Origin: Euzebya tangerina
Lineage (GTDB): Bacteria; Actinomycetota; Nitriliruptoria; Euzebyales; Euzebyaceae
Assembly (NCBI RefSeq): GCF_003074135.1
Contig: NZ_PPDK01000001.1
Location: 2,480,001 to 2,544,000, forward strand
Direction: 5' to 3'
DNA: 64,000 nucleotides
The position numbers and the translations under genes are program-made. Shown piece after piece: positions 48,764-57,846 of the stretch. Numbering within the stretch: position 1 is the first letter of the stretch; the number at the start of each line of letters is the position of its first letter. The notes below the pieces were generated by a model. That model searched no databases. It had not been told where the DNA came from and saw nothing but the letters and a program-made list of their open reading frames with translations.

Positions 48764-51700
48764 TCACAGACCGGCGGAGGCCACCACGGCATCACATGCC
48801 GCTTCGCTGGCCGCGCAGATGATGGTCCCCCCGTCGTCAGCGGGATCGAATGCGGCGTCCAGGAACGCCTGGGTCTCGGGTGGCACGTCATCGCCGTTGA
48901 CCAAGACGATCGGGGCGTCGGACGCTGCTGACAGACCGGCGAGGGTGAACCCGGCCGCCCAGGCGTTGTCGCCCTGACCCTCGAGGACGATGATTCGCTG
49001 CGCTGGGTTCTCGGCGTCGAAGCCGCGGATGTTGGCTATGGCGACCGCCGTGGCGAAGCGGTTGGGGCCGCTCACCCGGGTGCTTGCCACGCCCAACTCC
49101 GTCAGGCGGTCAGTGACGGCCTCGGCGACCGCGTCGATGCCGCCGATGACCGTGGTGCTCTCGATCTCGCTGGCTGCCAGATAGGCGTCCGTCGACGCGG
49201 TCAGCACATCCGGCTGGGTCAGCAGGATCGGGGTGCCGCCCACAGCCCCGTACGCACCCACGGCGAGGGAGTCGGCAAACGCCTGGGTCGGATCCGCGTC
49301 ACCCGTTGGATAGGCGCGCGCCAGGATGGAGTCCGTCGTGGTGTCGGTGTCAGTGCCGGTATCGGTCTCGGTGTCGGTACCGGTGTCCGGACCCATACCC
49401 GCGGTAGCCGTCAGGGCCAGGCTGCTGATCTCCAGAGCTGTCTCGACCCTCGTCTCGCCGGCCGTCCGGCTGACCGCGAACCCTGAGGTCACGAGCTCCT
49501 CCTCCACCGCTTGGCTGATGGCCGCCACGCCGCCGAGGATCCGGACCTGGGTTGCGCCGAGTCGCCGCAGTTCGGCCAGGACGGCGTTCTCCAGCGTGTC
49601 AGGGTTGTTCAGCAGGAGCGAGGTTCCGCCCGTCTGAATCGCACCCGAGGCCAGCGCGTCTGCGAACACGACATCGGAGGCGATCAGGACCTCGACATCC
49701 GTGCCGGCCAGCGCCCCGTTGTCGGGGTTCACCAGTTGAGAGCCCAGCACCGACAGCGCGGTGTTGTCCGTCTGGGCGGGATCCTCGGGGAGGAGGTTGA
49801 TGACGCCGTCATTCGGGTCGGGGTCGACCGGGTTCGGGTCCGTCGGACCGGGGTCGGTGGGGCCTGGGTCGGTCGGCCCGGGGTCAATCGGGTCATCCCC
49901 AAGATCAAGGCCGACGATCACCGGGTCGTGATCAGAGGACCGGAAGGCGTCGGGGGCGAAGAGCGGGAGCGCGTCGGACTTGCGCTCGAAGCTGCGCTCG
50001 GTCGCATCCTCGACGGTGTCGTTGTAGTCGAGCAGCGGCACCTCGTCGGCGTTGATGTGCCACGAGGTCACCCCTGTCACCTGGTCGGCCATCGGGCTGT
50101 TGGCCATGGCGTAGTCGAGGTACCCCAATTGGCCGTCGAAGAGATAGGTGTAGGCGTCCTCGCCGATCTCGGTCTCGAGCAAGTCCGCGAAGCCGGCGTT
50201 CTCGAGCGTCACGATGGCGTCTTCGTTGCGGTAGGCGTTCAGGTCTCCGAGAATCAGCACATCCGGGTCGCCAGATCCGGTCGGGTCCGTGGCCAGGAAG
50301 TCGGCGATGGCCGCGGCCGCATCGTTGCGGGTCTCCGAACAGTTGGCCTGGCCGTCGACGATGGACTCGTCCTCACCGATGTCGGCGCAGTCAGAGCCCT
50401 TGGACTTCAGGTGGTTGACGGCCGCGGTGAAGACCTCACCGGTCGCGACCTCCGAGAAGGTTTGGACCAGCATCGGTCGGTTCTTGCTGTCGACGAAGCG
50501 CGCGTCGACGCTGGAGTCCAGGATCGCGGAGTCGCCGACCGGAGCAACGGTTGCGGGCTGGTAGATGAAGCCGACCTTGATGGCGTCGGTGCCAATGGGG
50601 CCGGTGTCGATCTGGGCGTACGTGCCCGCGCCGACTACACCGTTCAACGCATCGACCAGGTCTTGCACCGCCAGCGCGGAGTTCTCGATCTCGATCAGCC
50701 CCACGACATCGGCATCCATCTCAGCCAGCGCAGCGACGATCTTGGCTTGTTGCCGATCGAGTTCGGCCTCGGAGTCGGCCCCCCGACACCCGGCATCGTC
50801 GCCGACCGTCGGGTCCGGGCAGACGTTCACGCCGTCGTCGATGGTGGGGAAGTAGTTGAGGACGTTGAAGCTGGCCACGGTGAGGTCGCCGCCGACGTCA
50901 TCTGGCTGGTCCTGCCGTGGCTCGACGTCGGCGAAGGTGTATGCCAGACCGTCGATGGGTCGGATGCGCCAGGCATCGGTGCCGGTCTGTCCGGCGAACG
51001 ACCAGTGCATGACGCCGGTGAGGTCGTCGATGGTCTGGCCACCTCGAAGGGTGTTATCGACGGAGAGCCCGCCCGTCGGCCACGAGGCGGATGGGAAGGG
51101 GTAGGGCTCGTCGGTAGCCCCGTTGGTGGCGTCGTTCTGGTCGTTGTTGTCATCGTCCAGGATGATGCGGCGAGTGGCCAGATCGTCCAGGAATGCTTGG
51201 TAGCCGGCGACGTCGGGCGCCGAGACGTGCGTGAACTGGAATGGGCGAGCCGACTCGGTCAGCACGACCTGCCCGTACCGGGCCAACTCGAAGTACTCGC
51301 TGACCACCAGCGTGTCAGGGAAGGTCACGACCATGCCCTCGACTGCCTCGAAGGTTGCTTCGGCCTCCGTCGACCCACCAGCCGGCATGGCCACCGGCAC
51401 CGCCGGGGGCAGTTCATTGCCCGACGACACGATCGCGAGGTCGACGGCGCCGGACGGCTCGAGCTGGGTCATGCCGAAGAACTCGTCAACGACGGCGTCG
51501 ACCGTGACCTGATCCCCGACCGCCAGGTCCACCGGGCAGAACCCGCGACAGAAGACGAACACCCCCTCGGAGGTCGCTGCATCGGTGTCGGCGTCTGCGT
51601 CCTCCTCCTGCAGGAAGAAGGCGTCCAGCATGTCGTCATCGGTGAACAGCGACGTCACGATGCCCGTGACCTCCACGGTGTCGCCGTCCAGTGGCGAGGC

Positions 51701-53005
51701 GGCGCCGTCACCCTGGACGTCGTGGATCGCCACCGGCGTGCCGTCGAGCCCGCCCGGGCCACCTCCACAGTCGTTGGCCTCACCGGGCGTGTCAGCGGTG
51801 AGGTCGCTGAAGGAACCCGGCTCGAAGTCGCCGGTGCCATCCGGGCAGCGGTAGGCGTGTGCGGTGACGAAACTCCCGTCGCCTGGTACCGCCGTGTCCG
51901 CGTAGCTGAGGTCAGGGGTTGCGTCCCCATCGATGAACGAGACCGCGTCGACGACGGCAGTCCAGGGCTCGCTGTCAAGCGTCCCATCGTCGTTGGTGTC
52001 GTAGTCCTCGCCAGCAGCTCCGGTGAAGCCGGTTACCAGCAGGTAGGTCACCGGGCTGCCGAAGAAGTCGGCATCGGTGTCCAGATCGATGTTGTCGACG
52101 CCTGGGTCCTCGCCGAGCACGTAGAAGCCGTCCGGGGGCATCGTGCCGGCAAGGTCGAAGGCGAAGTCGACCTGACCGGGCGCGAACTCACCGGAGAGGA
52201 TCACCAGGGAGAGGTCGGACAGGTCCTCGTCGGCAGGACCGGTGATCTCGACGTAGTCGCTGTCAGCGCCAGATTGCGAGTGACGGACCTCGTTGATCGT
52301 CACGGCCGGACCTGCCCCGCTCGAGACGGAGATGTCATCGATCCCGATCATCGAGTCCGAGCTGCCGGCGTTGGTGGTGATGATCCGGATGTCGACGCTG
52401 GCCTGATCGTCCGCCGCGGCGGGGAGGGTGACGCTGACGGGCGTCGAGAGCCCGGTGCCGTCGCTGGCGTCCGCGATGTAGCCCGCCGGCAGGTCCGTGA
52501 AGTCCCCGGTGGTGCCGACCCGGTACTGGGTCGCGACCTGTTGGACCGCGTCGCTGGTGTCCAGTTCGACCGCCGAGTAGTCCACGGCGATCCCGCTCTG
52601 CCCGGTCGTGACCACGCGGATGACCAGGTGAGGGGCGTCTGCGGTCCCGGAGCCCTGCAGCGCGACGACACCCTCCGTCTCCAACTCATGGACGCCACCG
52701 GCGGTGGACCCGGCACTCGAGCCCTCGATCACGTCGACTGGCGTCGCAGCTCCGTCGGCCGTGACCGTTCGGGGGTCGACGTCGTTGGCACTCGTCAGAC
52801 CGTCCCCGCGGTACCCGATGATCCCCGGTACCCCGCTCCAATCGTCATCGGCGGTGATCAACCCCCCGTCCTCCCACGCCTGTGAGAAGGGCAGCGGCTG
52901 GGCGGTGTCATCAGCCCGAACAGGTGTGACCAACGAGATGGCCAGCAGCAGGCTCAGCAGCGCCGAGAGTAGGGGAATGGACGGAACCGGACGGCGGATG
53001 ATCAT
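48764..53005 (-). CDS. Secreted ExeM/NucH-type nuclease with cell-wall-binding repeats
   Basis: The 1413-residue protein has a signal peptide ending near 'SLVTPVRA' (residue 31). A lamin-tail domain ('AVTINEVRHSQSGADSDYVE') and an OB-fold region ('VTGIVTSLFTDDDMLDAFFL') precede an endonuclease/exonuclease/phosphatase domain. That domain has 'VASFNVLNYFP', Glu in 'VVGLIEIENSAL', 'LILGDLNAYRNEDAI' and a final 'RSSDHDPVIVGL', as in extracellular nucleases ExeM and NucH. A DPGPT repeat linker then leads to cell-wall-binding type 2-like repeats, interrupted by a Thr/Asp/Glu-rich stretch near nt 49330-49390. It probably digests external DNA at the cell surface. GAGAGG lies about 10 bases before the ATG. 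Confidence 0.92.
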   Translation of the reverse strand: MIIRRPVPSIPLLSALLSLLLAISLVTPVRADDTAQPLPFSQAWEDGGLITADDDWSGVPGIIGYRGDGLTSANDVDPRTVTADGAATPVDVIEGSSAGSTAGGVHELETEGVVALQGSGTADAPHLVIRVVTTGQSGIAVDYSAVELDTSDAVQQVATQYRVGTTGDFTDLPAGYIADASDGTGLSTPVSVTLPAAADDQASVDIRIITTNAGSSDSMIGIDDISVSSGAGPAVTINEVRHSQSGADSDYVEITGPADEDLSDLSLVILSGEFAPGQVDFAFDLAGTMPPDGFYVLGEDPGVDNIDLDTDADFFGSPVTYLLVTGFTGAAGEDYDTNDDGTLDSEPWTAVVDAVSFIDGDATPDLSYADTAVPGDGSFVTAHAYRCPDGTGDFEPGSFSDLTADTPGEANDCGGGPGGLDGTPVAIHDVQGDGAASPLDGDTVEVTGIVTSLFTDDDMLDAFFLQEEDADADTDAATSEGVFVFCRGFCPVDLAVGDQVTVDAVVDEFFGMTQLEPSGAVDLAIVSSGNELPPAVPVAMPAGGSTEAEATFEAVEGMVVTFPDTLVVSEYFELARYGQVVLTESARPFQFTHVSAPDVAGYQAFLDDLATRRIILDDDNNDQNDATNGATDEPYPFPSASWPTGGLSVDNTLRGGQTIDDLTGVMHWSFAGQTGTDAWRIRPIDGLAYTFADVEPRQDQPDDVGGDLTVASFNVLNYFPTIDDGVNVCPDPTVGDDAGCRGADSEAELDRQQAKIVAALAEMDADVVGLIEIENSALAVQDLVDALNGVVGAGTYAQIDTGPIGTDAIKVGFIYQPATVAPVGDSAILDSSVDARFVDSKNRPMLVQTFSEVATGEVFTAAVNHLKSKGSDCADIGEDESIVDGQANCSETRNDAAAAIADFLATDPTGSGDPDVLILGDLNAYRNEDAIVTLENAGFADLLETEIGEDAYTYLFDGQLGYLDYAMANSPMADQVTGVTSWHINADEVPLLDYNDTVEDATERSFERKSDALPLFAPDAFRSSDHDPVIVGLDLGDDPIDPGPTDPGPTDPGPTDPNPVDPDPNDGVINLLPEDPAQTDNTALSVLGSQLVNPDNGALAGTDVEVLIASDVVFADALASGAIQTGGTSLLLNNPDTLENAVLAELRRLGATQVRILGGVAAISQAVEEELVTSGFAVSRTAGETRVETALEISSLALTATAGMGPDTGTDTETDTGTDTDTTTDSILARAYPTGDADPTQAFADSLAVGAYGAVGGTPILLTQPDVLTASTDAYLAASEIESTTVIGGIDAVAEAVTDRLTELGVASTRVSGPNRFATAVAIANIRGFDAENPAQRIIVLEGQGDNAWAAGFTLAGLSAASDAPIVLVNGDDVPPETQAFLDAAFDPADDGGTIICAASEAACDAVVASAGL

Positions 53006-53047
53006 GACTGCGCGGCCTCTCGATGGATGTTCTTGCGGAGCAGCAGA

Positions 53048-53053
53048 CTAGTA
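53048..53053 (-). promoter_or_regulatory. Candidate -10 (TACTAG) of the nuclease gene
   Basis: On the minus strand TACTAG lies about 43 bases before the nuclease ATG, giving a normal leader. Close by, ACAGG and CCTGT form an inverted repeat spaced by 10 bases in the divergent nuclease/tetR region. Confidence 0.35.
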
Positions 53054-53106
53054 CAGGCCTGCGACCGCCTGTCCATCAGGTGACGAGGAGATGAAGCTGT
53101 CCGCGA

Positions 53107-53112
53107 TACCGT
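53107..53112 (+). promoter_or_regulatory. -10 hexamer TACCGT, leaderless promoter of the TetR gene
   Basis: TACCGT ends 8 bases before the ATG at 53121, supporting that start over the ATG at 53091. Confidence 0.45.
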
Positions 53113-53120
53113 TCACCACG

Positions 53121-53735
53121 ATGGCCAGGATGACCGCCGGCGAGCGACGAGATCAGCTGATCGGCGTCGCCAAGGAGACCTTCGCCGAGTTGGGTTACGA
53201 CGGTGCCAGCGTCGAGGAGATCGCTGCGCGGGCTGGGGTGTCCAAACCCGTCGTCTACGAGCACTTCGGTGGCAAGGAGGGGATCTACGCCGTCGTTGTT
53301 GATCGTGAGGCCACGCGCCTGCTGGACAAGATCAGTGCCTACATCGACGACAAGAACGGCGGGCGACAGATCATCAACGCCTCCGCGCTGGCGTTCCTCC
53401 ACTACATCGAGGAGGATCCGGCGGCCTTCCGGGTCCTGACCCGAGACTCGCCGGCGTCCGTGACGACCCCGGGCATCGCCGGCCTGTTGAGCGACGTCGC
53501 CGACAAGGCGGCAGGGGTGCTCGCGGCGTTCTTCGACCGCTCTGGGCTTGATCCCGCCACCGCGCCGTTGTACGCCGGTGCCCTGGTCGGCATGGTCGCC
53601 TACGTCGGGTCGTGGTGGGCGACGGCCCGGGAGCCGTCAGCAGAAGAGGTGGCCCAACACATCACCGCCCTGGCGTACCACGGGCTTCGCGACCTGCCTC
53701 ACCACCCCGCCGGCGGCTCCTCACCCTCAAGCTGA
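53121..53735 (+). CDS. TetR/AcrR family transcriptional regulator
   Basis: The 204-residue protein has an N-terminal TetR DNA-binding domain: 'RRDQLIGVAKETFAELGYDG', then 'ASVEEIAARAGVSKPVVYEH' and 'FGGKEGIYAVV'. The helical C-terminal domain would bind a small ligand. An ATG at 53091 would add ten residues; the -10 hexamer just before 53121 favours the shorter form. It converges on the acyl-ACP desaturase gene, whose upstream region holds a tandem palindrome of the size TetR dimers bind. A role as regulator of the desaturase is inferred from this alone. Confidence 0.88.
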   Translation: MARMTAGERRDQLIGVAKETFAELGYDGASVEEIAARAGVSKPVVYEHFGGKEGIYAVVVDREATRLLDKISAYIDDKNGGRQIINASALAFLHYIEEDPAAFRVLTRDSPASVTTPGIAGLLSDVADKAAGVLAAFFDRSGLDPATAPLYAGALVGMVAYVGSWWATAREPSAEEVAQHITALAYHGLRDLPHHPAGGSSPSS

Positions 53736-53821: not shown

Positions 53822-54772
53822 TTAGGAGACCAGTTTGCGGTCGCGCGATTCGGCTCGTTGCCGCTTCTTCTCACGACGCTCCTCGAACCGTGTGGCCTGG
53901 GCATCCAAGTTCTCGATGAACTGGGCCAACTCCTCACGACGCTGTTCTGCGGCCGAATCGAGCCCCTCCATCTCGAAGATGCCCCACTTGCGCAGAATCG
54001 GCCACACGACGTCATCGTGGTGAACCCGCAGGTCATAGATGCCTGCGAGCGCTATCTGGGCGGCCATCCGGTTGAAGTTCGGGATTCCGTCGCCCGGCAT
54101 CGAGAATCCCATGACCTCGGCCGCGACGGCCTCGACGACCCCGTTCGGGTCCACGTGCTTCGCCGCGTCCATCATGTCCCGGTAGAAGAGCATGTGGAGG
54201 TTCTCGTCCTTGGAGATCCGCTCCATGATCCGGTCGGCCACCGGGTCCCCGGAGTACTTTCCGGTGTTGCGGTGACTGATGCGCGTGGCCAGTTCCTGGA
54301 ACGAGACGTAGGCAATTCCGCGCAGGGTGTTCTTCCCGTCCGCGTCGTAGCCGACCTCCATGGCCCCCATCCGACCGTCCTCGAGCTTCTTCGGGTCTTC
54401 GTTGCGGGTCAACATGAGGTAGTCCCGTAGCACGATCGAGTGTCGCCCCTCCTCCGCGGTCCAGCGGTGGACCCACGACATCCACGCCGTGTCCTTCTTG
54501 CCGAACATCGAGTAGATCTCGCGGTGGTAGGAGGGAAGGTTGTCCTCCGTCATCAGGTTCATGAAGAAGGCGGTCCGTGCGACACCGTCGAGGCTGGGCT
54601 GGTCGGGGGTCCAGGGCTCAGCCTCGAAGTCCCGCCCGTCGCCGTAGGGCACGTAGTCGTGGGGGTACCACATCTCCACGACCTTCATGTGGCGGTTGAG
54701 GTACTGCTCCGCCATCGGTTCGAGCTCGTTCAGGAGGTCGGCGTCGGAGAGGCGAGTGGCCATGGTCTGCAT
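53822..54772 (-). CDS. Acyl-ACP desaturase (di-iron, DesA-like)
   Basis: The 316-residue protein matches soluble acyl-ACP desaturases, which place a cis double bond in fatty acids. Di-iron ligands are seen as Glu76 in 'LMTEDNLPSYHREI', the Glu107-Glu108/His111 cluster in 'WTAEEGRHSIVLRDY' and 'ISKDENLHMLFYRDMM'. These match the DesA1/DesA2-like proteins of mycobacteria. The C-terminus is a charged helical tail. A second ATG lies at 54761-54763. Control by the tandem palindrome at 54795-54823, which overlaps the likely promoter, is probable. The electron donor is not nearby. Confidence 0.9.
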   Translation of the reverse strand: MQTMATRLSDADLLNELEPMAEQYLNRHMKVVEMWYPHDYVPYGDGRDFEAEPWTPDQPSLDGVARTAFFMNLMTEDNLPSYHREIYSMFGKKDTAWMSWVHRWTAEEGRHSIVLRDYLMLTRNEDPKKLEDGRMGAMEVGYDADGKNTLRGIAYVSFQELATRISHRNTGKYSGDPVADRIMERISKDENLHMLFYRDMMDAAKHVDPNGVVEAVAAEVMGFSMPGDGIPNFNRMAAQIALAGIYDLRVHHDDVVWPILRKWGIFEMEGLDSAAEQRREELAQFIENLDAQATRFEERREKKRQRAESRDRKLVS

Positions 54773-54794: not shown

Positions 54795-54823
54795 TTACGG
54801 TTGCGTAAGTTACGGTAGCGTAG
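54795..54823. promoter_or_regulatory. Tandem palindromic operator upstream of the desaturase
   Basis: TTACG-GTTG-CGTAA (54795-54808, perfect) and TTACG-GTAG-CGTAG (54810-54823, one mismatch) repeat with a 15-base period. On the minus strand the second site includes TACGCT and TACCGT, both possible -10 hexamers for the desaturase, so bound repressor would block transcription. Confidence 0.65.
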
Positions 54824-54922: not shown

Positions 54923-55351
54923 ATGGCGACCCTGTTCACGATGATCATCGACGGCGACCTACCCGGCCGATTCGTCTGGGAGGACGAGGTGTGCGTGGCC
55001 TTCCTGACGATCGAGCCCCTGACGCCCGGACACACCCTGGTCGTGCCGCGGCGGGAGTTCGACCACTGGTTGGACGCCCCGGCGGATCTCAGGGCGCACC
55101 TGTTCGAGGTGTGCCACGAGATCTCAGGAGCCATCGACCAGGCCTACCAGCCGGAGAAGGTCGGCCTGATGATCGCCGGCCTCGAAGTACCGCATCTCCA
55201 CATCCACCTGGCCGCGATCAACGAGTTGTCCGACCTCGACTTCGCCGGGGTGGACCGTGACCCGGATGCAACGGCCCTTGACGAGGCAGCCAGCCGGATT
55301 CGACAGGCCCTGCGTGACCGAGGGGCCGCAGGGGTCTCGGACCGCGGCTGA
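54923..55351 (+). CDS. HIT family protein
   Basis: The 142-residue protein belongs to the histidine triad superfamily of nucleotide hydrolases and transferases. The signature is His91, His93 and His95 in 'VPHLHIHLAAI', with 'MIIDGDLPGRFVWEDEVCVA' and 'LTPGHTLVVPRREFDHWLD' upstream. HIT enzymes split AMP-linked compounds; the exact substrate is not predictable. The gene is the last before the copper operon, which starts 48 bases downstream on the same strand with its own regulated promoter. Confidence 0.92.
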   Translation: MATLFTMIIDGDLPGRFVWEDEVCVAFLTIEPLTPGHTLVVPRREFDHWLDAPADLRAHLFEVCHEISGAIDQAYQPEKVGLMIAGLEVPHLHIHLAAINELSDLDFAGVDRDPDATALDEAASRIRQALRDRGAAGVSDRG

Positions 55352-55399: not shown

Positions 55400-55612
55400 A
55401 TGCAGACCACCGATACCATCAGCGTTCCCGAGATCCACTGCGACCACTGCAAGACCTCGATCGAGGGGGCTCTCAATCCACTCGACGGGATCACCGAGGC
55501 CACGGTCGACGTCCAGGATGCCAGCGTGACGGTGACGTTCGATCCGGCGCTCATCGATCGCCGCGCGCTGGTCGGGGCCATCGAGGACCAAGGCTATGAG
55601 GTCCCCTCATGA
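55400..55612 (+). CDS. copZ: Copper chaperone CopZ (heavy-metal-associated domain)
   Basis: This 70-residue HMA protein carries copper in the cytoplasm and hands it to the exporter. The metal site is Cys14 and Cys17 in '[12 protein letters not shown]', and '[20 protein letters not shown]' completes the ferredoxin-like fold. Many relatives have MxCxxC; here the first position is His. Its ATG follows a -10 hexamer by 7 bases. The TGA overlaps the ATG of copA, so the genes are coupled. Confidence 0.93.
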
Positions 55613-57846
55613 GCGCGCTCGATGACGCCGTCGGGAAGACGTCGACCACGTCGGCGGAGCTCGTCTTCGATGTCGAGGGGATGACCTGCGGGTCGTGCGC
55701 GGCCCGGGTGCAGCGAGTCCTCGGCAAGGAGGACGGCGTGGTTGACGCACGGGTCAACTACGCGACGGGCATGGCCCACGTCGACGTCGGTCCGGACGTG
55801 GCCGAAGACAGCCTGCACGAATCAGTCAGCCGCATCGGGTACGAGCTCGTGCCGCACCGGGACGCGGCGGCACGGCGGCGTGAACAGGAGGATGAGGAGA
55901 CGAGGTGGCGACGCCGGCTGGTGATCGGCATCCCCATCGCAGCGCTGTTCGGCGTCATGATGGCCCTCGGTCTCTCGGGCGGAGAGATGCCGGGGTGGTT
56001 CGAGAACGGTGTCGCGCCGCTGCTGGCGACGGTCACCGTGTTCGGCATCGGCTGGCCGTTCCTGCGGGAGGCAGCGCGCAGAGCCCGAGCGCTGACCACC
56101 AACATGGACACGCTGATCGCCATCGGAACGGTGTCGGCATGGGCCTTCTCGCTCGCGCAGTGGTTGGGTGGCCGGACCCCGCGGTACTGGGATGCCCCGG
56201 TGTTCATCGTGGTGTTCCTCGTGGCCGGCCGCTACGCCGAGGCACGTGCCAAGAGTCGCGCGGGTGACGCGCTGCAGTCGCTGCTCGAACTTGGTGCCAA
56301 GGAGGCCCGACGTCTCGACCCGGAGACCGGTGAGGAGACGGGGATGGTCGATGTCCTCGAGCTCGAGCTGGACGACCACATCCGGGTTCGGCCCGGTGAG
56401 ACGATCCCGGTCGATGGCGAGGTCGTGGCTGGCTCGACCGCCGTCGACGAGTCGATGCTGACGGGTGAGAGCGCGCCCGTGGAGAAGACGGTCGGCGACC
56501 CCGTGACGGGGGCCACCATCAACGCCGGCGGCGCCATCACCGTCGCCGTCAAGGCGGTCGGGGGTCGAAGCAAGCTGGCGCAGATGGCGGCGTTGGTCCA
56601 GCGGGCCCAGGACAGCAAGGGTGAGGCGCAGCGCCTGGCCGATCGTGTGTCCGCGGTCTTCGTCCCCATCGTCATCGTGATCGCGCTCGTGACCGCCGCG
56701 ATCTGGCTGCTCGTTTCGGGCGATGTCGCGGAAGCCGTCACCGCCGCCGTGAGCGTGCTGATCATCGCCTGCCCCTGTGCTCTGGGGCTGGCAACGCCGA
56801 TGGCGATGATGGTCGGGACGGGGCGCGCCGCCCAACTCGGCATCGTCGTGAAGGGCATCGAGGCGCTGGAGCAGACCCGGCGCGTGGACACCGTGGTCTT
56901 CGACAAGACGGGCACGCTGACCGAGGGTCGGATGTCCGTGGTTGCGGTCCACGGTGACGACGACGTCCTGGCCAAGGTCGCGGCAGTCGAGCAGGACTCA
57001 GAACACCCGATCGGTGCGGCGATCGTGGAGGCCGCCGAGCAGGTGGACCAGTCGGCGGAGGTGACCGACTTCACGGCTCACGCCGGACGAGGGGTCTCCG
57101 CCACGGTGGATGGCCAGACCGTGTACGTCGGTACCCGGCGGCTGTTGGCCGAGGAGGACCTCACGGTGGCGGAGGAGTTCGAGCAGTTGGCAGCGAAGGC
57201 CGAGTCGACGGGTGCGACCGTGGTGTTCGCCGGCTGGGATGGCCGGTGCACCGGCGTCATCTCCGTCGCCGACACCGTCAAGTCGAGCGCCGTTGGCGTC
57301 GTGGATGCCCTTCGTGACATGGGGGTGGACGTGGCCATGATCACGGGGGACAACCAGCGCACGGCGCGGTCGATCGCCGACGACCTTCGCATCACCACCG
57401 TTCTGGCCGAGGTGCTGCCGGAGGACAAGCAGGCCGAGGTGGAGCGTCTGCAGGGACAGGGTCTGACCGTCGCCATGGTCGGTGATGGTGTAAACGATGC
57501 ACCTGCCCTCGCCCAGGCCGACCTCGGGATAGCGATGGGGACGGGAACAGACGTGGCGATCGAGGCGTCCGATCTGACCCTGATGGCCGGCCGGCTGCAG
57601 TCGGTCCCGACCGCGATGCGCCTGGCTGCGGGGACCGAGCGGACCATCCGTCAGAACTTGGCCTGGGCCTTCGGGTACAACACCCTGGCCATCCCGGTGG
57701 CGGCGCTCGGGCTGTTGACGCCGGCTGTGGCGGGCGCGGCGATGGCCTTCTCGTCGGTGTCGGTGGTGCTGAACAGCCTACGGCTGCGCCGCTTCGGTCA
57801 GGTTGAGGCCCGTGGGGCGGACGATCAGATGGAGGTGGCTCGGTGA
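55609..57846 (+). CDS. copA: Copper-exporting P1B-type ATPase CopA
   Basis: The 745-residue pump exports Cu(I) and has one N-terminal metal-binding domain ('[19 protein letters not shown]', Cys27 and Cys30). The transmembrane metal site is the CPC motif in '[17 protein letters not shown]'. The phosphorylation motif is '[13 protein letters not shown]', with 'TGES', the HP of 'SEHPIGAAI' and '[20 protein letters not shown]'. All catalytic elements are present. It overlaps copZ by four bases and csoR by four bases, forming a three-gene operon under a CsoR operator. Confidence 0.96.

Follow-up and report, generated by a model that had tools for sequence, protein, structure and literature searches.

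A conserved tandem palindrome before an acyl-ACP desaturase gene of Euzebya tangerina as the probable operator of the neighbouring Rv1019-group TetR repressor

Introduction

In Euzebya tangerina, the gene for a soluble acyl-ACP desaturase is preceded by two palindromes and adjoined by a TetR-type gene, raising the question of whether the palindromes form an operator, which protein would bind it and whether such a circuit is confined to this locus. In Mycobacterium tuberculosis, Rv1019 was described in 2022 as a negative regulator of Rv3230c-Rv3229c, with oleic acid synthesis as the repressed target, according to the report (doi 10.1111/febs.16647) as it is cited in PMC9861118, and a review lists it in addition as a repressor of mfd or mfd-mazG (PMC9579286). 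Here we analyse a window of 64,000 nucleotides, the whole stretch of DNA presented above, together with 61 relatives and a 396-genome sample of the phylum. The operator led to the desaturase genes independently of the report linking Rv1019 with Rv3230c-Rv3229c.

Results

A tandem palindrome upstream of the desaturase gene

The locus comprises the following features.

54795-54808, no strand assigned: palindrome 1, TTACGGTTGCGTAA, perfect TTACG-N4-CGTAA, gene-proximal
54810-54823, no strand assigned: palindrome 2, TTACGGTAGCGTAG, last base deviating, displaced by +15 bp
53822-54772, minus strand: soluble acyl-ACP desaturase, proposed target (PF03405, 224.3 bits, cut-off 22.7)
53091-53735, plus strand: TetR-type regulator, proposed operator binder (PF00440 DNA-binding domain of the TetR family, 56.3 bits, cut-off 24; PF19344, 31.9 bits)

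The whole tandem operator, TTACGGTTGCGTAAGTTACGGTAGCGTAG at 54795-54823 of the forward strand, reads CTACGCTACCGTAACTTACGCAACCGTAA on the minus strand, towards the desaturase, and consists of two YTACGN4CGTAR palindromes in a 15-bp register; the two palindromes, their coordinates and the 15-base period given in the original prediction were all confirmed on the sequence. It lies upstream of the desaturase ORF, 22 bases from the first ATG, with an alternative in-frame ATG at 54763. The desaturase belongs to the FA_desaturase_2 family, is the sole PF03405 gene found in the genome, and has DesA2 of M. tuberculosis as its closest solved structure (1za0, E 2.3e-36). The TetR ORF is convergent with it, the two ends being 86 bp apart, in agreement with the adjoining convergent regulator that had been predicted.

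Elsewhere in the neighbourhood, a protein of 1413 aa, encoded on the minus strand at 48764-53005, combines an endonuclease/exonuclease/phosphatase domain with three CWB2 repeats for cell-wall binding and is probably an extracellular nuclease. A copper-type P-ATPase (HMA, E1-E2 ATPase) is encoded on the plus strand at 55609-57846; a small chaperone-like ORF lies before it, and the stretch after it appears by eye to contain a CsoR-type regulator.

Single palindromes are no commoner than expected, with five sites of up to two mismatches found in the window against 4.56 expected, which is background, and with sites of up to one mismatch numbering 47/46 genome-wide against 53/59 for the reversed control, showing no enrichment; palindrome 1 is the sole exact TTACGN4CGTAA of the genome. 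By contrast, the tandem pattern TACGN4CGTAN3TACGN4CGTA has one exact occurrence in the 4.78 Mb genome, with ~0.0003 predicted from base composition, and the reversed-control tandem had no match in the 61 genomes searched and one match each in three large genomes of the 396-genome sample. The signal is the tandem arrangement, not the single palindrome. In our literature search, the operator was described in no title or abstract found.

Conservation upstream of desaturase orthologs

The original prediction had named conservation upstream of orthologous desaturases as its touchstone by sequence, and the result was positive. The desaturase is present in 37 of the 61 relatives, and 35 loci include the 5′ end of the gene (30 from one set and five of six from another, L050 being cut off), amounting to 34 independent loci because L047 and L038 share one contig. 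A tandem with 0-2 mismatches lies no more than 150 bp upstream of the orthologous desaturase at 27 of the 35 loci, the best tandem having no mismatch at 20 loci, one at six, two at one, three at one and five to seven at seven, and among 7000 dinucleotide shuffles none had two or fewer mismatches and nine had three. Eight loci lack a tandem at this level, four of which (L028, L030, L033 and L044) retain one perfect palindrome; no perfect palindrome was found at L042 or at L045, L046 and L048, three loci titled Chloroflexi MAGs, in whose available DNA no TetR ortholog was found either. Judged by these comparisons, the tandem is a conserved regulatory site. That it should be a chance palindrome without function, as the ordinary frequency of single palindromes might suggest, is scarcely credible in the light of the shuffles and of the empty reversed control in the 61 genomes.

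The operator is 100 bp away from the start of a divergent HIT-domain gene (54923-55351), which has a counterpart at this place in G002 and G003, and one might argue that it serves this gene and not the desaturase. We consider this very unlikely, since no HIT match was found at the other 28 complete-flank loci, all outside the genus, and the tandem stays with the desaturase.

The neighbouring TetR protein

The closest solved structures to the TetR protein are 6o6p and 6o6n, which we take to be M. tuberculosis FasR structures, and the similarity to FasR spans the whole length. Its orthologs in other families are 47-55% identical, against 28-37% for the second, FasR-like matches, so that the best match stands far above the FasR-like one, placing the protein in the Rv1019 group, a group assigned through orthologs in the glmU-mfd gene position and not through Rv1019's own sequence. 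In a tree, the orthologs form one branch apart from the FasR-like rows (support 100/98), with two FasR-like paralogs on a separate branch. Among the orthologs read, the recognition region hardly varies, which fits an operator that is itself constant.

FasR of mycobacteria (NF053731) was rejected as the identity of the protein, which scores 103.2 bits against a curated cut-off of 330, and NCBIfam FabR gave a weak match only. MadR was rejected as the regulator, its reported consensus TCTGTGxxxxxxxGT being unlike YTACGN4CGTAR. An AlphaFold model built from three sequences was poor, with a mean pLDDT of 57. In the window, the neighbours of the TetR gene are an exonuclease-like gene and the desaturase gene instead of glmU and mfd; the glmU-TetR-mfd gene order is not a defining feature of function.

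Co-occurrence of regulator and operator across the phylum

Of the 61 relatives, 46 have a close TetR ortholog (E 1e-30 or better). Among the 396 genomes of the phylum, 56 contain the exact tandem, 81 the ortholog (E 1e-36 or better) and 53 both, the ortholog thus occurring in 53 of 56 tandem-bearing versus 28 of 340 tandem-free genomes (Fisher p 3e-41, with ancestry not corrected, from a table counted by hand in which related genomes are not independent). The three tandem-bearing exceptions are G046, which is 84% complete, and G097 and G119, which have partial TetR matches. Because the exact tandem occurs in 13 families of the sample (f1-f5, f14, f23, f29, f34, f38, f44, f52 and f57), the circuit is not merely local; of the local circuit for membrane lipid unsaturation originally proposed, the link between regulator, operator and desaturase is supported and the restriction to this locus is lost. 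In a check set of 32 genomes, namely the 28 tandem-free genomes with the ortholog and four relatives, a tandem with up to two mismatches was found in 23, and in 16 its coordinates place it upstream of either the desaturase or the TetR operon, figures to be read with the reversed control, which also matches in these genomes (17 control matches against 42). Triple palindromes in the 15-bp register take the place of two at L082/L121, L168, L170, L172 and L173.

Two genomic arrangements of the proposed circuit

Within the window's order (families f1-f3), the TetR gene is convergent with the desaturase in all 19 genomes with both genes on one contig, at distances of 34-5262 bp; in G001 of the same order the two genes are on different contigs, and in family f4 they are far apart (G032 and G039) or on different contigs.

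A second arrangement is found in f4, f5, f6, f11, f14, f23, f38 and f44, where the tandem lies upstream of the gene preceding the TetR gene. In 41 tabulated genomes, chosen for having operator and TetR gene near each other on one contig and comprising exact tandems as well as tandems with one or two mismatches, the tandem lies 989-1329 bp upstream of the TetR start in 40 and 3414 bp upstream in G139. The ORFs between them fall within one cluster of 28 ORFs, some counted twice, and all that were scanned are PF00487 membrane desaturases (three, then ten of ten, then L222, the last eleven scans including f6, f11, f14, f38 and f44), placing the regulator in line behind its own operator in these genomes. 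In G204 (contig C12), a tandem with one mismatch that lies away from the TetR gene likewise precedes a PF00487 gene. The original prediction had seen no palindrome at the TetR promoter and doubted self-control. This holds in E. tangerina, where the promoter stretch 52880-53140 has no operator-like site, the sole stretch with up to two core mismatches being GGACGGAACCGGAC, but not in the many genomes whose TetR gene lies downstream of the operator.

Mycobacteria-like genomes connect these arrangements with Rv1019. Of the tandems in G096 (f29/g69), one (L213:2594-2622) stands before an oxidoreductase carrying FAD, NAD and 2Fe-2S domains, like Rv3230c, and a second (L213:3814-3842) before a DesA3-like PF00487 gene; nine of ten desaturase ORFs from g69 and g212 cluster with a scanned PF00487 gene. 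The TetR ortholog of G198 and G129 has mfd on one side and glmU on the other, a ribose-phosphate diphosphokinase gene adjoining glmU, and this is the position of Rv1019 in M. tuberculosis. The two settings are bridged by G118, in which glmU, a PF03405 desaturase gene preceded by one palindrome, and the TetR gene are neighbours. No exact palindrome was found near mfd in L210 or L211.

These arrangements bear on which TetR protein binds the operator. The FasR-like paralog (31% identical, G000:C3:211354) also carries the SKPVLYQHF recognition region, and the DNA in the FasR crystal, as described in PMC7382501, contains TACCN4CGTAG, one core base from this palindrome, so another TetR, above all this paralog, might be the main binder while the neighbour serves other genes. 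We hold this to be improbable, since it is the close ortholog that the tandem accompanies, through operon-like order in many genomes, as a convergent neighbour in the window's order and in the co-occurrence, and in G096 the FasR-like gene lies 25 kb from the tandems. On these comparative grounds, the neighbouring TetR is most likely the regulator acting on the operator, and it is the best candidate for that role.

Other genes behind the operator

The search for the palindrome near other lipid genes, proposed with the original prediction, yielded one gain against single sites otherwise at background: a third exact genome site, TTACGCGACCGTAG at L013:4806-4819 (G000:C1:3126805-3126818), which immediately precedes a PF01553 (PlsC-type) acyltransferase gene. 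Together with the operator's two, it makes up the exact YTACGN4CGTAR sites of the single-site list; it is kept in all four genomes of the window's genus searched and absent in the more distant G004.

In G006, G013 and G026 (the last 76% complete), the soluble desaturase was not found. In these genomes and in G025, the tandem, a triple in G006, precedes related ORFs that are 60-72% identical.

L121:3054-4648, and also in L123, L125 and L093: NMO/FabK-related gene with tandem or triple operator

The G006 ORF, the only one scanned, belongs to PF03060 and gave weak matches to chains of FabK and of 2-nitropropane dioxygenase, among them 7e1q, which we take to be Helicobacter FabX, an enzyme making unsaturated fatty acids without oxygen. 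It is possible from these matches that ORFs of the G006 type encode an oxygen-independent enzyme of unsaturated fatty acid synthesis, a reading that is only a lead because the match is distant. Tandems also precede alpha/beta hydrolase ORFs in G018 (L124:3036-3064) and G108 (L151:1500-1528), cases that the desaturase model does not predict.

Position of the operator relative to the promoter

The palindromes had been predicted to cover possible -10 hexamers of the desaturase gene, and one hexamer lies at their junction.

54807-54812, minus strand: candidate -10 hexamer TAACTT, where the two palindromes meet

The hexamer fits TANNNT, but so by construction does any match to the tandem pattern; between 54740 and 54960 no promoter was found by a sigma-70 consensus scan, and the window has no -35 box at 17 bp. 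Among 48 desaturase-oriented operators, the junction reads TAGGTT in 22, TAACCT in 13, TAACTT in nine and TAAGTT in four. In nine of the 48, a hexamer sharing five or six positions with TTGACA stands upstream of the junction hexamer at a spacing of exactly 17 bp, whereas every other spacing between 8 and 33 has 0-2; for matches of at least four, spacing 17 has ten and spacing 10 has nine. The TTGACA-like box at spacing 17 indicates that the operator embraces the -10 box in some genomes, and a -10 box at the window junction is plausible.

The place of the operator bears on the sign of regulation. The closest solved relative, FasR, is reported as an activator (PMC7382501), and the window TetR could likewise activate; this seems unlikely to us, as Rv1019 is, in the account cited above, a negative regulator, and the tandem surrounds a possible -10 box, preceded at 17 bp by a TTGACA-like box in those nine operators, a placement that suits blocking.

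Discussion

We consider it highly probable that the tandem is the operator of the neighbouring Rv1019-group TetR, an acyl-CoA-sensing repressor of which two dimers shut off the desaturase gene. Two TetR dimers would occupy the two 14-bp palindromes, one each, the 15-bp step turning them to almost opposite sides of the helix. Lying over the -10 region at the junction, they would block polymerase and keep the desaturase gene off. Fatty acyl-CoA, the probable ligand by analogy with FasR and MadR, would be sensed by the C-terminal domain and alter binding, so that the desaturase level would track the need for unsaturated membrane lipid. For this organism, we infer binding and repression, the two dimers, the acyl-CoA ligand and the promoter position from the comparisons above. 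Given the shared operator, the co-occurrence with the ortholog and the report on Rv1019, the window appears to hold a further instance of the Rv1019-type circuit repressing fatty acid unsaturation, one that seems to extend across the phylum.

With confidence only a little better than even, we further propose that, in a large part of the actinobacterial phylum, fatty acid unsaturation is governed by one TetR and one tandem operator, which follow function instead of a particular enzyme: a soluble acyl-ACP desaturase, a membrane desaturase with its reductase, an oxygen-independent FabX/FabK-like enzyme in genomes without the desaturase and, for the genus of the window, also a PlsC-like acyltransferase, with the -10 box at the operator centre. 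A regulator studied, as far as the literature searched shows, in mycobacteria is hereby linked to a seemingly phylum-wide control of membrane lipid unsaturation, through a precise operator that can now be searched for in any genome. Where one operator stands ahead of unrelated enzymes that perform equal tasks, how regulation follows function can be studied as a natural experiment. It may also be asked whether the effect of Rv1019 on mfd-mazG that has been reported is a secondary one.

Among other bacteria, TetR repressors known to control unsaturated fatty acid synthesis include DesT of Pseudomonas aeruginosa and FabR of Escherichia coli, which differ from the present case in phylum and in operators. 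MadR (Rv0472c) is closer in being an acyl-CoA-responsive TetR repressor whose targets desA1 and desA2 are by name acyl-ACP desaturases, like that of the window, and is set apart by its reported operator consensus (PMC8872791). FasR (Rv3208) resembles the window regulator as a TetR regulator of fatty acid synthesis with whole-length similarity and a related DNA site, but lies on a separate branch, is described in PMC7382501 as an activator of fas-acpS, and defines an NCBIfam family whose cut-off the window TetR falls far below. The closest parallel is Rv1019, which shares the TetR group, by sequence and by gene order in mycobacteria-like genomes, and the same tandem operator, found there before the genes corresponding to Rv3230c-Rv3229c (oxidoreductase and DesA3). 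The Rv1019 target is a membrane acyl-CoA desaturase with its reductase, unlinked to the regulator, whereas the proposed target in the window is a soluble acyl-ACP desaturase whose gene adjoins that of the regulator.
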